From Sphingobacteriaceae bacterium (GTDB lineage: Bacteria > Bacteroidota > Bacteroidia > B-17B0 > Aurantibacillaceae), in NCBI GenBank assembly GCA_002319075.1, contig NVQB01000001.1:4154001-4218000 (forward strand): a DNA stretch of 64,000 nt. The letters run 5' to 3'. The notes beneath the pieces were generated by a model. It was not told the DNA's origin. It worked only from the letters and a program-made list of their open reading frames with translations, and did no database searches. Positions 20,037 to 51,386 of this stretch are shown piece by piece. A program made the translations under genes and the position numbers. Numbering within the stretch: position 1 is the first letter of the stretch; every line of letters starts with the position of its first letter.

Positions 20037-20825
20037 ATGCAATATAAAGATCAGATCGGAAACAGAGTTGACTTAGCAGCTAAACCGCTGCGGGTTATTT
20101 CACTTGTTCCTTCGCAGTCTGAATTTTTATGGGATTTGGGTTTGCGTGAAGAATTAATCGGCATCACCAAATTTTGCATACACCCTGATGAGATGTTCAG
20201 AAGCATCAGCAGGATAGGGGGGACAAAAAAGCTCGACTTAGATAAGATTCGAAGTTTAAAACCAGATCTGATCATTGGGAATAAAGAGGAGAATCAAAAA
20301 GAACAAATTGAAATTCTGCAAAAGGAATTCCCTGTATGGATGAGTGATATTTATACGTTTGAAGATTCTTTTCAAATGATGGAAAACCTGGGACAGATCC
20401 TGGAAAAACAAAAAGAAACGCAACTAATCCTTGAGAAGCTAAAAGCATCGCTATTAAAAATCAAAGCACTTTTTAAAGATCAGGAGGTCGCTTATTTTAT
20501 TTGGAACAAGCCTTATATGTGTGCCGCGAAGGATACTTTCATAGATCACGTACTAAGTTATCTGGGACTTGAAAACGCGTTGGGAGAATTTACACGCTAT
20601 CCCGAACTAACGGAAGAAGATCTTAGAAGAATAAATCCGGAGGTTTGTTTTTTATCCAGCGAACCCTTTCCTTTTAAGGAAGAACACATAAAAGAGCTAC
20701 AGAGGTGTTTACCAGAGGCGAAAATTTTAATTGTAGATGGTGAGGTTTTTAGCTGGTATGGCACTAGGTTGTTGCATCTTGAAAAATACGTGCAAGGGTT
20801 ACCACTAAGACACTCAGAACACTGA
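20037..20825 (+). CDS. BtuF-like helical-backbone metal receptor without signal peptide
   Basis: 262 aa. The sequence PLRVISLVPSQSEFLWDLGLREELIGITKFCIHP, then KPDLIIGNKEEN, matches the periplasmic binding fold of BtuF/FepB-type cobalamin or iron-chelate receptors. The protein starts directly in the domain and has neither signal peptide nor lipobox, so it is predicted to stay in the cytoplasm; such proteins are common in Bacteroidota and their ligand is uncertain. The last seven residues (PLRHSEH) and the stop are encoded by a dispersed repeat that begins at 20801. Confidence 0.82.
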   Translation: MQYKDQIGNRVDLAAKPLRVISLVPSQSEFLWDLGLREELIGITKFCIHPDEMFRSISRIGGTKKLDLDKIRSLKPDLIIGNKEENQKEQIEILQKEFPVWMSDIYTFEDSFQMMENLGQILEKQKETQLILEKLKASLLKIKALFKDQEVAYFIWNKPYMCAAKDTFIDHVLSYLGLENALGEFTRYPELTEEDLRRINPEVCFLSSEPFPFKEEHIKELQRCLPEAKILIVDGEVFSWYGTRLLHLEKYVQGLPLRHSEH

Positions 20826-20920
20826 GAAGCACAAAGTCAATAGATGAAACTCAATAGTATGTATGATGTATGCTGTGATAAACTAAGTGAACCTAAGTGC
20901 TCTTAGTGGCTTAGTGGTTC
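20801..20920. repeat. Inverted pair of dispersed CCACTAAG repeats between convergent genes
   Basis: The left arm starts ACCACTAAGACACTCAGAAC at 20801; the right arm, read on the minus strand from 20920, starts GAACCACTAAGCCACTAAGA. The arms are imperfect inverted copies around a ~50-bp centre. The same motif is the unit of the tandem array at 30026-30380. Both flanking genes end inside the arms, so the structure could act as a two-way transcription stop. Confidence 0.75.
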
Positions 20921-27450: not shown

Positions 27451-27568
27451 TAGTTTCCGAAGTAATGAATTAGAAAATTTGTTTTGCTTAATGCAAAACA
27501 AATTTTTTTATTTGGGAATAATGGTACAAATTTAAGTTCCGCAGATTACCTTGGAAAATTTTAAACTT

Positions 27569-30019
27569 ATGCAATCAAAATTTTACTTTCTTTTTTTTCT
27601 TGCACTTGCCTCGTCTCTTTCTGCTCAGATTACCCAAACTGTTAAGGGGAAGGTTTCAGACAGGGTAACGGGCATTGGAATGCCTGGTGTAATAGTCCAG
27701 TTAAGATCTTCAACAACTACACTAGTTGCAACTTCCGATAACAATGGTTTTTACAAATTATTAAATGTGCCGGTTGGACGCCAATCTTTTTTATTTACCT
27801 ACACTGGCTACAAAGCGGCTCCCGTTAACGATGTAATAATTACCTCCGGTAAAGAAGCGGTGTTAAATATCGATCTTGAAGAAAGCACCGTGAGCATGGA
27901 GGAAGTAGAAGTAAAGGCTTCCTCTGATACAGATGTTGTAAATACTATGCAGATTTCGAATATGAAATCCTTTAGCATTGAAGAAACAGAACGCTATGCA
28001 GGTTCACGACAAGATCCGGCAAGAATGGCTCAAAATTTTGCAGGTATCCAGGGCACAAACGACTCGCGAAATGATATCGTAATCCGTGGAAATAGTCCTG
28101 CAGGTTTGCTATGGAGATTAGATGATATCGATATTCCAAATCCGAATCACTTTGCTGTAGCGGGCTCTGCCGGGGGACCACAGAGTATCATTAATAATAA
28201 ATATTTATCCAACAGTGAATTTTATACCGGTGCTTTTCCGGCGAATTATGGAAATGCTTTAGGTGGTGTTTTTGATTTAAAAATGCGCAATGGAAATAAT
28301 GAAAAGCACGAACGCACCTTTCAATTAGGAGTTTTAGGCACAGAGCTGGCTCTGGAGGGACCACTGAGTAAAAAATCAGGTGCAAGTTATTTGATTACTT
28401 ACCGTTATTCTACCTTAGCTTTGTTTGGAAGTGTGAACTTTAAATTGGGAACAAGCGCCATTCCTAATTACCAGGACATGGGTATCCGGTTGAACTTCCC
28501 AACCAGGAAAGCCGGCGTGTTTAGTTTTACAAGTATTGGCGGTTTAAGTAATATTGCCATTAAGTTAAGCGATGTGCACGAACGTCCGAAAGAGCTTTAT
28601 GGCGATCAGAACCGCGATCAGTATTTTGCCACTAACATGGGTGTAGGAATTTTAAGTAATGTTTATACATTGAACAGTCGCACCGTTATGAAAACAAGTC
28701 TGGCATTTTCTTTATCCGACATCAGTTCTAAACATTACCTGGTGATTCGTAACAAAGATTTTGTGCCAAACGATACACTTCCCAAAATTCTGGATTATGC
28801 TTTTACCGAAAAGAAAACAACTTTAGCCTGGTATATTAAAACCAAGATCAATGCAAAAAATAGTGTAAAAGCAGGTTTTTTCGTGAACCGCTTTGATGTT
28901 AATTACAATGATGATGCACGCATCAGCTCTTTGTATGATACCATCGCGCAGAGTGTGGAGAACAAACCGTTCAAGAACCGTGAAAATATTCAGACGAATT
29001 TTTATTTGATTCAACCTTACATTACCTATGTGCATAAATTCAACGAGAAGCTGAGTTTAAATACAGGCTTGATTTCCCAAATTCTTACACTTAATAATAA
29101 AATGACTATTGAGCCCAGGGCGAGTCTGCGTTATCAGTTAAAACCCAAACAAGTTATCAGTTTAGCGTATGGATTACACAGTCAAATGCAATCCACTTAT
29201 TTGTACTTTGCTATTCCTGATACCCTGGTAAGAAATGGTGTATTAAGTCCTAATACGCAAAGAGCTTCAGATCTGACGAATCTCGATTTCAGTAAAAGTC
29301 AGCACGCCGTTTTAGGTTACGATTTTTTTATCAGTAAATATTTTAAGATGAAAACGGAAGTCTATTACCAGTATTTATGGAATGTTCCGGTGTATGCGGT
29401 TCCTTCGAGTGTGTCAACGCTCAACAGGGGAGCCACTTTCAACAGATTTTATCCTATCTATTCTATGGTGAATACAGGAACGGGTGAAAATTACGGACTG
29501 GAATTAACGCTTGAGAAACTATTTCACAAACATTATTTTTTTATGGTGAATGGAAGTTTGTTTGAAAGTAAATACACAGCAAGCAATGGCAAAAAAGCCA
29601 ATACCGATTTTAATGGCAATTACATGATGAATTTTGTAGGTGGTGTGGAATATGGGGTCGGCAAGGATAAAAAAAACAGTCTTAGCTTCGGAACAAAAAT
29701 TACTTACGGTGGAGGAAAACGGTATTCGCCGGTTAACATAACAGCGAGCAATGCTGTAATGGACGTAGTAGCGCAGGACGACAAAGTAAATACCTTGCAA
29801 TTTAATCCATACAACCGTGTTGATCTTCGTGTATCGTATAAAATTAATGGCAAAAAGGCCAACGTAGAACTCGCACTTGATCTTTTGAATATTTTCAGTG
29901 CAAAGAATATTTTAGCATTGAGCTACTCGCCAGATCCGGCCGACAGAACAGCTGATCCATTAGTGAAAAATTACCAGTTAGGATTTCTGCCGTTGTTCTA
30001 CGTTAAGGTCGACTTTTAA
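27569..30019 (+). CDS. TonB-dependent receptor with CarboxypepD_reg-like domain
   Basis: 816 aa from ATG 27569; the TTG at 27551 is not needed. Signal peptide MQSKFYFLFFLALASSLSAQ, an N-terminal carboxypeptidase-regulatory domain (VKGKVSDRVTGIGMPGVIVQL), a plug (NDIVIRGNSPAGLLWRLDDI, GAFPANYGNALGGVFDLKMR) and a ~600-residue barrel. It is too short for SusC and has no SusD next door, so a siderophore, vitamin or oligomer receptor is more likely than a glycan one. No upstream riboswitch was seen. It would be energised by the ExbBD/TonB operon nearby. Confidence 0.88.
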   Translation: MQSKFYFLFFLALASSLSAQITQTVKGKVSDRVTGIGMPGVIVQLRSSTTTLVATSDNNGFYKLLNVPVGRQSFLFTYTGYKAAPVNDVIITSGKEAVLNIDLEESTVSMEEVEVKASSDTDVVNTMQISNMKSFSIEETERYAGSRQDPARMAQNFAGIQGTNDSRNDIVIRGNSPAGLLWRLDDIDIPNPNHFAVAGSAGGPQSIINNKYLSNSEFYTGAFPANYGNALGGVFDLKMRNGNNEKHERTFQLGVLGTELALEGPLSKKSGASYLITYRYSTLALFGSVNFKLGTSAIPNYQDMGIRLNFPTRKAGVFSFTSIGGLSNIAIKLSDVHERPKELYGDQNRDQYFATNMGVGILSNVYTLNSRTVMKTSLAFSLSDISSKHYLVIRNKDFVPNDTLPKILDYAFTEKKTTLAWYIKTKINAKNSVKAGFFVNRFDVNYNDDARISSLYDTIAQSVENKPFKNRENIQTNFYLIQPYITYVHKFNEKLSLNTGLISQILTLNNKMTIEPRASLRYQLKPKQVISLAYGLHSQMQSTYLYFAIPDTLVRNGVLSPNTQRASDLTNLDFSKSQHAVLGYDFFISKYFKMKTEVYYQYLWNVPVYAVPSSVSTLNRGATFNRFYPIYSMVNTGTGENYGLELTLEKLFHKHYFFMVNGSLFESKYTASNGKKANTDFNGNYMMNFVGGVEYGVGKDKKNSLSFGTKITYGGGKRYSPVNITASNAVMDVVAQDDKVNTLQFNPYNRVDLRVSYKINGKKANVELALDLLNIFSAKNILALSYSPDPADRTADPLVKNYQLGFLPLFYVKVDF

Positions 30020-30025
30020 TGCACA

Positions 30026-30380
30026 TTAACCACTAAGGCCCTCAGAACACTTAGTTGCACTTAGGTTCTTGTTAGTTGTCTGGTGGTTCGAATATGTTAA
30101 CCACTAAGACACTCAGAACACTTAGTTGCACTTAGGTTTTTGTTAGTTGTCTGGTGGTTCGAATATGTTAACCACTAAGGCCCTCAGAACACTTAGTTGC
30201 ACTTAAGTTTTTATTAGTTGTCTGGTGGTTCGAATATGTTAACCACTAAGGCACTCAGAACACTTAGTTGCACTTAGGTTTTTGTTAGTTGTCTGGTGGT
30301 TCGAATATGTTAACCACTAAGGCACTCAGAACACTTAGTTGCACTTAGGTTTTTGTTAGTTGTCTGGTGGTTCGAATATG
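30026..30380 (+). repeat. Five tandem 71-bp repeats
   Basis: Units start at 30026, 30097, 30168, 30239 and 30310, each exactly 71 bp and beginning TTAACCACTAAG. Each ends CTGGTGGTTCGAATATG, so AACCAC and GTGGTT form inverted ends of every unit. Units differ at a few positions only (GGCCCTCAG, AGACACTCAG or GGCACTCAG; one has TTAAGTTTTTATTAG). After unit 5, CTTAGTGGTTAAC at 30385-30397 is an inverted fragment of the unit start. The array fills the gap between the receptor stop and the next promoter. It contains no spacers, so it is not a CRISPR. Confidence 0.92.
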
Positions 30381-30408
30381 TAGTCTTAGTGGTTAACTAA
30401 TAAAATGT

Positions 30409-30416
30409 TAATTTTG
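30409..30416 (+). promoter_or_regulatory. -7 element TAATTTTG
   Basis: TAATTTTG ends 4 nt before ATG 30421 and 12 nt after the inverted end fragment of the repeat array. A leaderless message is predicted. No -33 TTG is evident; at that distance lies the repeat-derived CTTAGTGG. Confidence 0.5.
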
Positions 30417-30420
30417 TTCT

Positions 30421-31755
30421 ATGACAAAGATCCTCATTATAGGTGCCGGGCGCTCGGCCACCTATTTAATAAAGTACCTTATTGAAAACTCTACTGCCAA
30501 CGATTGGAAAATTACGGTTGCTGATGTAGATATTGAGCTGGCGCGTCAGAAAACATCCTGGCACAGTAATGCAAATGGAATCAGCTTTGATATACGAGAT
30601 GAAGAAAAAAGAAAAGAAGTCATTAAAGAACACGATTTAATTATTTCGATGCTGCCTGCTTTTATGCATGGCGATGTGGCGAGAGACTGTGTAGAATTTG
30701 GCAAACACATGGCTACAGCAAGTTATGTGAGTGCAGAAATGAAAGCACTGAATGATGAAGCCATCAAAAAGAATGTCCTGCTTCTAAACGAATGTGGACT
30801 TGATCCGGGACTCGATCATGCAAGCGCAATGAAAGTAATACATGAGATTAGAGAGCAGGGTGGGACAATTACCTCTTTTAAATCTTTTTGCGGAGGTCTT
30901 GTGGCTCCCGAGAGCAATGATAATCCCTGGGGCTATAAGTTTAGCTGGAATCCAAGAAATGTTATTCTCGCGGGTCAGGGAACAGCGCAGTACCTGGAGG
31001 AAGGCAAAATAAAATTCATTCCTTATAACAGACTTTATACGCAAATAGACAGCGTTATTGTTGATGGCTATGAAAAATTTGACGCTTACGCCAACCGTGA
31101 TAGCATAGGGTATATGGACAGCTATGGGCTGCAAAATGTAAAAACGATGTTACGTGGAACGCTTCGTGAGGACGGGTATTGCAAAGCCTGGAATGTTTTT
31201 ATTAAACTGGGTTTAACGGATGATAGCTCGAAGATTACACATGCCTCGTCTTTAACCTATACGGCTTTACTCGATGCCTTTTTACCTGCTGGAAAGGGCA
31301 GTGTAAAAGAACGTCTCATCAAATTTATGGGTAAAGACTGGAATGAGGGGTTGGACGAAAAACTAGAATTTCTGGAATTATTTTCTGATAAAAAAATCAC
31401 TTTGGCTGAAGGCACACCCGCGCAGCTATTACAGGCTTTATTGGAAGAAAAATGGAAACTCCAGGAAACGGACAAAGACATGATCGTAATGCAACACCAG
31501 TTCGAATACCAAATGAAAGGACAAACTGAAGTAAAAAAGTTAGAATCCTCCCTGGTGGTTATCGGAAAAGACCAGCAGTATACAGCCATGGCGCTCACTG
31601 TTGGCTTGCCTCTTGCAATTACGGTTAAGAATTTCCTTACCGGTAAAATTAAATTGAGTGGCGTACAAATTCCTATTCATCCCGAAATTTATGAGCCTAT
31701 GTTGTCTGAGTTGGAAGAACATGGGGTTATCTTTATAGAAAAGCAATTAGCATGA
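30421..31755 (+). CDS. Saccharopine dehydrogenase family protein
   Basis: 444 aa. N-terminal Rossmann motif MTKILIIGAGRSATYLIKYL, then ISMLPAFMHGDVARDCVEFGKHMATASYVS and NECGLDPGLDHASAMKVI, which match saccharopine dehydrogenase (glutamate-forming or reductase type). The likely reaction is NAD(P)-dependent cleavage of saccharopine in lysine breakdown, though related proteins have other substrates. It overlaps the LytTR gene by 4 bp (ATGA). Confidence 0.88.
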   Translation: MTKILIIGAGRSATYLIKYLIENSTANDWKITVADVDIELARQKTSWHSNANGISFDIRDEEKRKEVIKEHDLIISMLPAFMHGDVARDCVEFGKHMATASYVSAEMKALNDEAIKKNVLLLNECGLDPGLDHASAMKVIHEIREQGGTITSFKSFCGGLVAPESNDNPWGYKFSWNPRNVILAGQGTAQYLEEGKIKFIPYNRLYTQIDSVIVDGYEKFDAYANRDSIGYMDSYGLQNVKTMLRGTLREDGYCKAWNVFIKLGLTDDSSKITHASSLTYTALLDAFLPAGKGSVKERLIKFMGKDWNEGLDEKLEFLELFSDKKITLAEGTPAQLLQALLEEKWKLQETDKDMIVMQHQFEYQMKGQTEVKKLESSLVVIGKDQQYTAMALTVGLPLAITVKNFLTGKIKLSGVQIPIHPEIYEPMLSELEEHGVIFIEKQLA

Positions 31756-49568: not shown

Positions 49569-49846
49569 TGCCAGTTCAACTTAGAGACCGTCAGTTCAAC
49601 CGAAGACTGTCAGTTCGAGACAGAGACTGTCAGTTCGAGACAGAGACTGTCAGTTCGAGCGTAGTCGAGGACAGTTCAACCCATAGACTGTCAGTTCGAG
49701 CGTAGTCGAGAACAGTTCCACCAAGAGACCGTCACTTCGAACGATAGAGTGTCAGTTCGAGCGTAGTCGAGAACAGTTCCACCGAGAGAGACTGTCAGTT
49801 CGAGCGTAGTCGAGAACAGTTCAACCGATAGACTGTCAGTTCGAGC
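49569..49846 (+). repeat. 41-bp-type repeat array, left part (split by an IS)
   Basis: Repeated blocks of GACTGTCAGTTCGAG, CGTAGTCGAGAACAGTTC and CAACC/CCACC, some shortened (GAGACAGAGACTGTCAG). The element TCGAGCGTAGTCGA is nearly palindromic. The array continues after the IS at 51278-51386, where the period is exactly 41 bp. Likely a dispersed intergenic repeat family expanded in tandem. Confidence 0.85.
49839..49846 (+). repeat. 8-bp target-site duplication, left copy (GTTCGAGC)
   Basis: GTTCGAGC at 49839-49846 is repeated at 51278-51285 on the other side of the IS. Eight bp is the usual duplication length of the ISL3 family. Confidence 0.9.
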
Positions 49847-49876
49847 GGATCAGGCGCAAAATCTGTGGAGTAAAAT

Positions 49877-50869
49877 TTAGGCAAATAGTTTAGAGAGTCT
49901 AAATAGGAAGAAATTTACATCTGTAACTCCTCGGTATTGCGCTCTAAAAGCTTTGATTTTCGCATTAAATGATTCGGCTGAGGCATTAGTACTTCTGTTA
50001 TTAAAGTAGTTTAGTATTCTTTTGTAATTGTTTTCAATGGTTCTGGATAGGGTATTGAAGGTCTTGAACCCAGATTGGGCAACCTCTTCATGCCATTTGG
50101 CTAATCTTGTAAACGCATATATTTTCTCTTTTGTATTGCTGTAGATCCAGGATAATTTTTGAGCCAGACCATACGCTTTTTTAATATCAGGATAACGATC
50201 AAAAAGTATGTTAGCTCTTTGGGATTGTTCTAAAGTCCAGTTGTGTTCGGCTTTGTAGAGTAAATAGCGGCTTCTTGCGAGTAGTTGTTTGAGAGTCTCA
50301 CCATTACTTAAAATTTCAGGGACATAAGCTCTTTTGTTTTTCCGGGATTCGTCAATGCCATTATTTTCAGCCTCTATAGCTTCCCAACGATGTCTTATTC
50401 TTATTTCCTGGAGTGCTTCGGTAGCTAACTGTTGAACATGGAAGCGATCAATAACCATACTTGCATGAGGAAAACATTTTTTTACGATTAACCCCATGCT
50501 ACCCGCAAGATCCAGTGTGACTTCACGAACTCTCTTTCTAAGATGTAAGGGGATACTTTGTAGCAATGAGATTATGCTCTCCGAGTGAGTCCCCTTTAAA
50601 ATCGCAACTATGGTACCCTTCTTCCCTTTTGCCGCTTTGTTGGAGAGGATTGTGTAAAGCTCTGAGTGTGATAAACAGGTCTCATCAATGGATAAATAAG
50701 GACCAATGTTTTCAGGAAATATAATTCCTTGTTCGGCTTTATTCTTGTATTTCCAATCGTTATAATCACTTAATTTCTTACGATAGTAACGCTGAAGCTT
50801 TTTGCCATTAATGCCGTAAAATGAGCCTATAGTTTTAATGCTATGCGCATGCGTATCAACTAATTTCTT
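49877..50869 (-). CDS. IS transposase, DDE catalytic part (second ORF, needs frameshift)
   Basis: The frame is open from just after TAA 50872-50870 to the stop at 49877 (330 codons). The catalytic set is complete: D in YLSIDETCLS, D in TLDLAGSMG and in VIDRFHVQQL, E in NASAESFNAKIKAF, the ISL3 pattern. No ATG, GTG or TTG occurs in this frame before TTG 50566, which is already past the first Asp, so normal initiation cannot give an active enzyme. A +1 shift from the first ORF is the most economical explanation and yields about 444 aa, a normal ISL3 length. Confidence 0.87.
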   Translation of the reverse strand, partial: KKLVDTHAHSIKTIGSFYGINGKKLQRYYRKKLSDYNDWKYKNKAEQGIIFPENIGPYLSIDETCLSHSELYTILSNKAAKGKKGTIVAILKGTHSESIISLLQSIPLHLRKRVREVTLDLAGSMGLIVKKCFPHASMVIDRFHVQQLATEALQEIRIRHRWEAIEAENNGIDESRKNKRAYVPEILSNGETLKQLLARSRYLLYKAEHNWTLEQSQRANILFDRYPDIKKAYGLAQKLSWIYSNTKEKIYAFTRLAKWHEEVAQSGFKTFNTLSRTIENNYKRILNYFNNRSTNASAESFNAKIKAFRAQYRGVTDVNFFLFRLSKLFA

Positions 50870-51212
50870 TTAAAAAAGCCGCAAAATCGTTTGTGATTCG
50901 CGTCCCTTTTGTAATGATATCCCAATTACGAAAAACTACACTTCCGGTCTCCTCATTAAGCCAGCGACGACGCTTGACATGCAGAAAAACATTGTGCCCC
51001 CGAATCGGAAAATCTTGTATAGTTACCTGATCAAAAAAACCTTTTGAAGTTAATCGGACAGTCGCGTACTCAGCAGGAATAGTGCTTATCTCTTGTAAAT
51101 ACAAATCAATGCGCTCGCTTTCTGAGTCTTTTTTATAACCTGTGAGTTCAAAATAATCGCAAATCCCCTCAGGTAATACTATTTTTAAAAAGTCATTGTA
51201 GGATGGGTCCAT
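50856..51212 (-). CDS. IS transposase N-terminal part (first ORF)
   Basis: 118 aa from ATG 51212, matching the N-terminal region of ISAon1-type transposases (DPSYNDFLKIVLPEGICDYFELTGY; HVKRRRWLNEETG with basic residues likely to bind the ends). It stops at TGA 50858-50856 and overlaps the second frame by 14 nt. The overlap holds TTA-AAA-GAA, where slipping +1 on AAA-G would enter the catalytic frame. Confidence 0.87.
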   Translation of the reverse strand: MDPSYNDFLKIVLPEGICDYFELTGYKKDSESERIDLYLQEISTIPAEYATVRLTSKGFFDQVTIQDFPIRGHNVFLHVKRRRWLNEETGSVVFRNWDIITKGTRITNDFAAFLKEIS

Positions 51213-51277: not shown

Positions 51278-51386
51278 GTTCGAGCGTAGTCGAGAACAGT
51301 TCAACCCATAGACTGTCAGTTCGAGCGTAGTCGAGAACAGTTCAACCCATAGACTGTCAGTTCGAGCGTAGTCGAGAACAGTTCCA
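51278..51386 (+). repeat. 41-bp-type repeat array, right part
   Basis: Two full units with GACTGTCAG at 51311 and 51352, exactly 41 bp apart, plus the remains of the unit cut by the IS (starting with the duplicated GTTCGAGC at 51278). Ends shortly before the YceI gene stop at 51410. Confidence 0.88.

Follow-up and report, generated by a model that had tools for sequence, protein, structure and literature searches.

The repeats analysed here lie between two genes on the same strand, in a 64,000-nucleotide stretch (the window) of a Sphingobacteriaceae genome of 5.65 Mb that is assembled in 2 contigs and 99.98% complete. Upstream, on the + strand, is a gene for a receptor-type protein (27551–30019), which has carboxypeptidase-regulatory domain matches and a TonB plug match just under the cut-off (23.4 versus 23.9 bits). 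The tandem array (30026–30380) starts 6 nt past the stop codon of this gene and contains no ORF of at least 60 aa. Downstream, also on the + strand, is a saccharopine dehydrogenase gene (30421–31755) identified by its domain match, and 4 nt upstream of its ATG is a −7 motif, TAATTTTG (30409–30416, + strand). This −7 element is credible because TAnnTTTG is enriched in relatives: 41 of 78 have it no more than 40 nt from the start of the dehydrogenase gene, whereas 100 shuffles gave 3.8 on average and 9 at most. The initial annotation of the window, which had placed the array between a receptor gene and a leaderless dehydrogenase gene, is thus borne out for the identity of both genes and for the −7 context, while a leaderless start is compatible in that it would fit a −7 motif at this distance from the ATG.

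The array consists of five 71-bp units, all on the + strand, at 30026–30096, 30097–30167, 30168–30238, 30239–30309, and 30310–30380. The units are tandem and exact in length, as had been claimed: TRF returned 5.0 copies of period 71 with 0 indels, 96% matches, and a score of 670, and column alignment showed that 66 of the 71 columns are invariant among the five units, the remaining 5 differing by substitutions only. Together, these two results leave no room for a chance origin of the tandem array. Units 4 and 5 are identical in sequence; the other units differ. The left arm of a unit can be written as ACCACTAAG-n-CACTnAG-nn-CACTnAG-nnn-CACTnAG, that is, four CACTnAG heptads spaced by 1, 2, and 3 nt, to which units 2, 4, and 5 are an exact fit, with one substitution in heptad 2 of unit 1 and one each in heptads 2 and 4 of unit 3. 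Unit 1 reads TTAACCACTAAG-G-CCCTCAG-AA-CACTTAG-TTG-CACTTAG, followed by a loop containing GTTAGTTGTCTGGTGGTT, which by eye has a degenerate resemblance to a right arm, with pairing seen in folds. The inverted unit ends that had been described are present, without being flush with the unit boundaries: the start is TTAACCAC, and GTGGTT is followed by CGAATATG. The inverted piece reported to close the array is real. It corresponds to GTCTTAGTGGTTAAC (30383–30397, − strand), the outer end of a right arm, which is complementary over all 15 nt to 30096–30110 and over 12–13 nt to the starts of the other units, and pairs with the left arm in predicted folds. These outer 15 nt are all that is seen of the right arm, whose inner heptads were not found. 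The piece does lie close to the −7 element, at a spacing of 11 nt rather than the 12 nt originally given.

A search of the whole genome for other copies, proposed in the initial annotation, showed that the array has many relatives. With the array as a DNA query, ten places were found in the host genome, the nine outside the array being 32–61-nt pieces of 79–91% identity that are mostly arm; the loop part of the unit has no full-length match elsewhere in this genome. When up to 3 mismatches are allowed, the degenerate pattern ACCACTAAGnCACTnAGnnCACnnAG for the arm has 54 hits in the genome, 5 in the array and 49 outside it, versus 0 for the reversed control. With up to 2 mismatches, it is found in 18 of 40 genomes of the same genus (i.e., in 17 others besides the host), the reversed control giving 0 in all 40. 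The 19 stretches around the hits in the host genome hold 21 elements, in 14 of which both outer ends are visible. Their loop lengths are very different and their loops are unrelated between copies, loop-to-loop matches falling on arm copies inside arrays. The elements are mostly intergenic, though a few overlap predicted gene ends, and the window itself contains a second member (20801–20918), a single inverted-arm element with no tandem array. Judged by its arms, the array belongs to this dispersed CACTnAG family, since it has a four-heptad arm at 1-2-3 spacing and, at its other end, the outer 15 nt of an inverted right arm; this was beyond the reach of a first reading of the window alone.

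The arm grammar has to be read with the search in mind. The pattern itself prescribes the first two spacings, of 1 and 2 nt, and C, A, C, A, and G were forced in each heptad by the arm analysis, so that their invariance there is no finding. The third spacing, which was left free, is 3 nt in 21 of the 26 three-heptad arms; the other 5 have no fourth heptad, and no other value between 0 and 6 nt occurs. Among 18 distinct arms, the fourth letter of the heptad, free in heptads 2–4, is T in 16, 15, and 16 cases, respectively, and the linkers vary. Selection for a perfect palindrome was considered and rejected because paired arms agree less in their linkers and variable heptad positions than after random re-pairing. 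In 11 elements, values as low were obtained in 346 of 20,000 re-pairings for linkers 1 and 2 together and in 228 of 20,000 for the variable heptad positions; linker 3 gave 141 of 20,000 in 5 elements, and linker 1 alone is not unusual (4312 of 20,000). This low agreement would suit an element whose two ends can be told apart, or one in which every heptad is recognised, better than it would suit simple pairing.

Tandem arrays are concentrated in this family. They occur in 7 of the 19 element stretches (38 kb, this array included), with periods of 58, 58, 67, 71, 102, 147, and 183, and the other 12 element stretches have none. An identical TRF filter applied to 80 relative loci (545 kb) finds arrays in 4. 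In the arrays with periods of 67, 71, and 102 and in one of those with a period of 58, the repeated segment is the left arm plus loop, with one right arm at the close. No right arm is visible in the remaining 58-bp array, and in the 147 and 183 arrays it is the whole element that is repeated. A second genome of the genus, assembled in one contig, also has an array, with a 98-bp period. Slippage within the element, or unequal exchange there, is the mechanism we infer for the growth of the family arrays. Two distant arrays in the host genome, L081 (from C1:3673005) and L082 (from C1:2974129), have nearly the same 58-bp unit, and one may have seeded the other. In addition, a different palindromic repeat (GTTCGAGCGTAGTCGAGAAC...) forms tandem arrays at two places in the window, 49572–49847 and 51278–51384, which flank an ISL3-type transposase ORF (49877–50566; PF01610, 2.7e-48); a nearby ORF (50856–51212) has no Pfam match.

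Family elements often abut the ends of genes. In the host genome, 11 of 21 elements (13 of 34 outer ends) have the stop codon of an adjacent predicted gene no more than 10 nt away, and in two of them the stop codon TAA forms part of the element's TAACCAC; as background, of the window's positions in gaps of at least 30 nt, 320 of 6992 (4.6%) are equally near a stop codon. The element counts consider outer ends only. In the second complete genome, the outer end is similarly close to a stop codon in 6 of 22 entries, many of which are single arms, two of an original 8 having been left out for abutting the GxxExxY gene that they enclose. Such a position would be expected equally if elements insert at gene ends and if they merely persist better there.

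The junction occupied by the array is variable in relatives. We collected 80 relatives, the closest full-length one having 74% protein identity, and left out 2 with too little upstream sequence. The receptor adjoins the dehydrogenase in 15 of the remaining 78, a number that could be an underestimate where short upstream stretches hide synteny. Seven of these 15 syntenic junctions have gaps of 15–66 bp, and six (five of 156–172 bp, one of 278 bp) contain, by eye, inverted arms of a GCCAC(A/T)nATT type; one is 1082 bp, and one of 106 bp has arms of another motif. In the window's genome, the junction is 401 bp and holds the CACTnAG array. The arms in the 106-bp junction (L136:2895–3000) are, by eye, of the GGAAGATGG type, and a third kind of repeat may therefore use the receptor–dehydrogenase junction.

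A gene is associated with some of the arms. One element of the host genome (C1:2996715–2997205) has, between CACTnAG arms, a 137-aa ORF matching PF13366 PDDEXK_3 (1.4e-36) and TIGR04256 GxxExxY (1.8e-36); no PDB chain matched this ORF by sequence at E up to 0.1. The array, with no ORF between its arms, is not itself such a GxxExxY-bearing element. Of the four GxxExxY matches in the host genome this is the one in CACTnAG arms, the other three having related heptads, or other repeats or poorer arms, and one of them being broken. The latter type of locus is illustrated by L101 (C1:2025859–2026113), a GxxExxY frame with one internal stop and, by eye, flanking GCAGAT-type inverted repeats, which is perhaps a decaying copy. 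CACTnAG arms are found on both sides of GxxExxY in four genomes, the host and three others (G001, G034, and G026). For a broader view, each gene's upstream flank of about 200 nt was aligned to its reverse-complemented downstream flank of about the same length, the control being 461 other genes, short GxxExxY-like ORFs excluded, with a median score of 11 and a 99% level of 18. This level is reached by 11 of 19 GxxExxY loci in the genus and 17 of 27 in the phylum, versus 6 of 461 other genes; 8 of 19 and 10 of 27, respectively, fall under it. Many GxxExxY genes across the phylum are thus bordered by arms of CACTnAG or related heptads. The loci are best-scoring matches, as a rule one per genome, rather than a random sample, and the test dropped 13 of 32 genus and 3 of 30 phylum GxxExxY loci, as well as 2 of 31 four-helix-bundle loci, that had no usable ATG ORF close to the centre or lay too near an edge. 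In a shuffle test, 15 of 28 genus GxxExxY loci beat all 200 shuffles and 13 did not; the median score was 18, versus a maximum of 14 in 25 dehydrogenase controls.

Inverted arms are not exclusive to GxxExxY genes, as 12 of 29 genus loci for four-helix-bundle proteins (TIGR02436) also reach the 99% level, although AT-rich flanks could inflate some of these scores. By eye, four-helix-bundle genes (L102 and L250–L278) are often in inverted arms of AATCAAGA, AGTATTGAG, and TTAATAGGGATTAG types. They were rejected as the main partner of the CACTnAG family because their repeat arms are, by eye, of other motifs, and are kept as a parallel. Across the genus genomes, some of which are incomplete, the correlation between GxxExxY and the arm pattern is weak: each of the 18 pattern-positive genomes has a GxxExxY match, and the pattern has no hit in the 5 genomes that lack such a match, but 17 of 22 pattern-free genomes also have GxxExxY matches, two of these below the family cut-off. 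More widely, a GxxExxY match at E 1e-20 is present in 73 of 148 sampled genomes of the phylum, and GxxExxY occurs in 8 plasmid records, all at less than 60% identity. GxxExxY/PF13366 is seldom named in the portion of the open-licence literature covered here, mostly in papers titled on other subjects, and among the open-licence papers covered we found no description of a link between such arms and GxxExxY.

We think it reasonably likely that the array stems from an ORF-less member of a dispersed inverted-arm (hairpin) family of Bacteroidota, which inserted at the junction, was amplified in tandem by slippage, and is mainly passive. A hairpin element without an ORF would have entered directly behind the receptor stop codon, leaving the −7 motif of the dehydrogenase in place. 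Its segment consisting of the left arm and loop would then have been brought to five copies by slippage or unequal exchange, with one terminal right arm left. Such an element would be mainly a passive (selfish) insertion, adding RNA hairpins to any read-through transcript, and the effect of the array on expression is probably modest. The least certain part of this explanation, suggested by the association of gene and arms, is that GxxExxY from ORF-bearing members may recognise the heptads and copy or move the elements in trans.

A functional RNA element, in which the hairpin between the genes would set mRNA 3′ ends or stability as in REP or BOX elements, with copy number tuning the effect, is a clearly less probable explanation. 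The capacity of the repeats to fold back, anticipated in the initial annotation, is supported: a transcript of the whole array has a predicted energy of −125.9 kcal/mol (z −5.0), equalled by 0 of 100 shuffles, and the last unit together with the inverted end forms a fold on either strand (z −2.62 and −3.04). Three of the five units folded singly on the + strand gave z −0.89, −2.62, and −2.38, whereas one unit on the − strand is at random level (z −0.55). The position of the elements behind stop codons would also suit a role at mRNA 3′ ends. However, a simple scan found 0 terminator-like sites (a GC-rich stem followed by a T run) in 29900–30600, with 0.4 expected by chance, and the transcription stop that had been suggested as a role is thus unsupported for the intrinsic kind, which we dropped. 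No Rfam family scored above its gathering threshold in 29800–30700, the best being Teg49 (E 0.5, 22.5 bits versus 186). In an alignment of the junction elements of five of the syntenic relatives and one further relative (L059), the stem is kept, with 84.3% of cells paired versus 28.7–40.7% in slid versions, and 5 of 18 pairs are changed on both sides. Nevertheless, this covariation comes from 6 sequences from which the structure itself was drawn, and shuffles were as high in 16 of 500 cases for paired cells and in 6 of 500 for pairs changed on both sides. Moreover, 7 of the 15 syntenic junctions have just a short gap, and pairing is not maximised in the family, linkers 1 and 2 and the variable heptad positions matching below random re-pairing.

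Other alternatives fare much worse. Clean arrays do arise by slippage, and the unit loop has no full-length match elsewhere in the genome, as would be expected of a plain minisatellite formed by chance tandem duplication of unique intergenic DNA. Such an origin outside any family is very improbable, being contradicted by the 49 arm hits outside the array, the 17 other genus genomes with the arm, and the concentration of arrays in the CACTnAG family. We give equally little credence to an assembly artefact in which a single unit was inflated to five: units 4 and 5 are identical, as this would predict, but the other units differ at 5 columns, and family arrays are found elsewhere in this 2-contig genome and in the separate one-contig genome. 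Least credible of all is a REP/BIME element mobilised by a RAYT (Y1 HUH transposase), which would look alike in its scattered palindromic repeats and a protein gene flanked by them, but against which stands the absence of a Y1_Tnp (PF01797) match in the host genome at E 0.001 in a search that was positive in 5 of 14 control genomes.

Beyond the preferred explanation, that of a mainly passive, amplified family member, we tentatively raise the possibility of a single repeat–nuclease system, undescribed and extending across the phylum, that would consist of the heptad arms together with the GxxExxY PD-(D/E)XK protein. C(A/G)CnnAG heptads at set spacings would be recognised by this protein as DNA or folded RNA, pairs of arms would spread behind stop codons, and motif and protein would diverge together (CACTnAG, CACAGAG, CGCAAAG, and CACnATT types), with ORF-less copies riding along and the 71-bp array as an amplified passenger. 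This would be an analogue of REP–RAYT that relies on another enzyme, with the four-helix-bundle genes in other arms as a parallel branch and rRNA intervening sequences (IVS) as a special case. Should GxxExxY genes indeed travel in heptad-armed hairpins, with ORF-less copies strewn over the same genomes, this would point to a candidate substrate for a nuclease-like family and would account for a class of intergenic repeats in Bacteroidota. There is nothing unusual about the array as such, and it is the link between repeat and gene that is testable. This locus is a readable case: its junction is empty or filled in relatives, its arms follow a clear grammar, and it shows growth in tandem.

How does the CACTnAG family compare with known systems? 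REP/BIME–RAYT systems comprise scattered and clustered palindromic repeats and a protein gene flanked by the same repeats. The CACTnAG family differs from them in that its host genome has no Y1 HUH transposase match and its candidate protein is PD-(D/E)XK-like. Like MITEs, the family has inverted ends and is short, dispersed, and mostly intergenic. Unlike in a classic MITE, the loops are unrelated between copies, matches between loci being mostly arm, with the 58-bp unit of L081 and L082 as the exception to the lack of a shared interior. The IVS of 23S rRNA, as portrayed in the excerpts of the source used here, have an inverted stem around a small S23p ORF, are excised by RNase III, and have been proposed, rather than shown, to be mobile; in Coxiella, heptameric direct repeats (GACAGAT) precede the ORF (PMC4990558). 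GxxExxY-bearing elements resemble IVS in having a small ORF in a stem with heptamers, but IVS are in 23S rRNA, encode a four-helix bundle rather than GxxExxY, and have another motif (PMC4990558, same excerpts). The array, which is between two protein genes and has no ORF, is not an IVS. The TAACTGA direct repeats near start codons described in part of another report (PMC4679880) are different from CACTnAG arms. BOX elements of Streptococcus pneumoniae are dispersed and stem-forming, and their end modules enclose a core that varies in tandem; in the excerpts drawn on here, they are enriched between convergent genes and regarded as parasitic by the authors (PMC3049150). The CACTnAG family shares with them the dispersed stem elements and the tandem core between end modules, whereas BOX elements belong to another phylum, share a boxB core, and have ends likened to ISSpn2 (PMC3049150, same excerpts). 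Each CACTnAG array has its own unit, with CACTnAG heptad arms, and the two are set apart here by description, not by sequence. The BrickBuilt MITE of Porphyromonas gingivalis, present in 19 copies in one genome, has a minisatellite inside an intergenic element with inverted ends, according to the part of the source used here (PMC4596501). It is like the CACTnAG family in being found in Bacteroidota and in its minisatellite and inverted ends, and differs in that one 23-nt repeat is common to all copies (PMC4596501, same part). In the CACTnAG family, periods range from 58 to 183, units are mostly unrelated, and there is an ORF-bearing relative, the comparison being one of architecture only. We assign the array to none of the known systems, the nearest by architecture being pneumococcal BOX and the BrickBuilt MITE.
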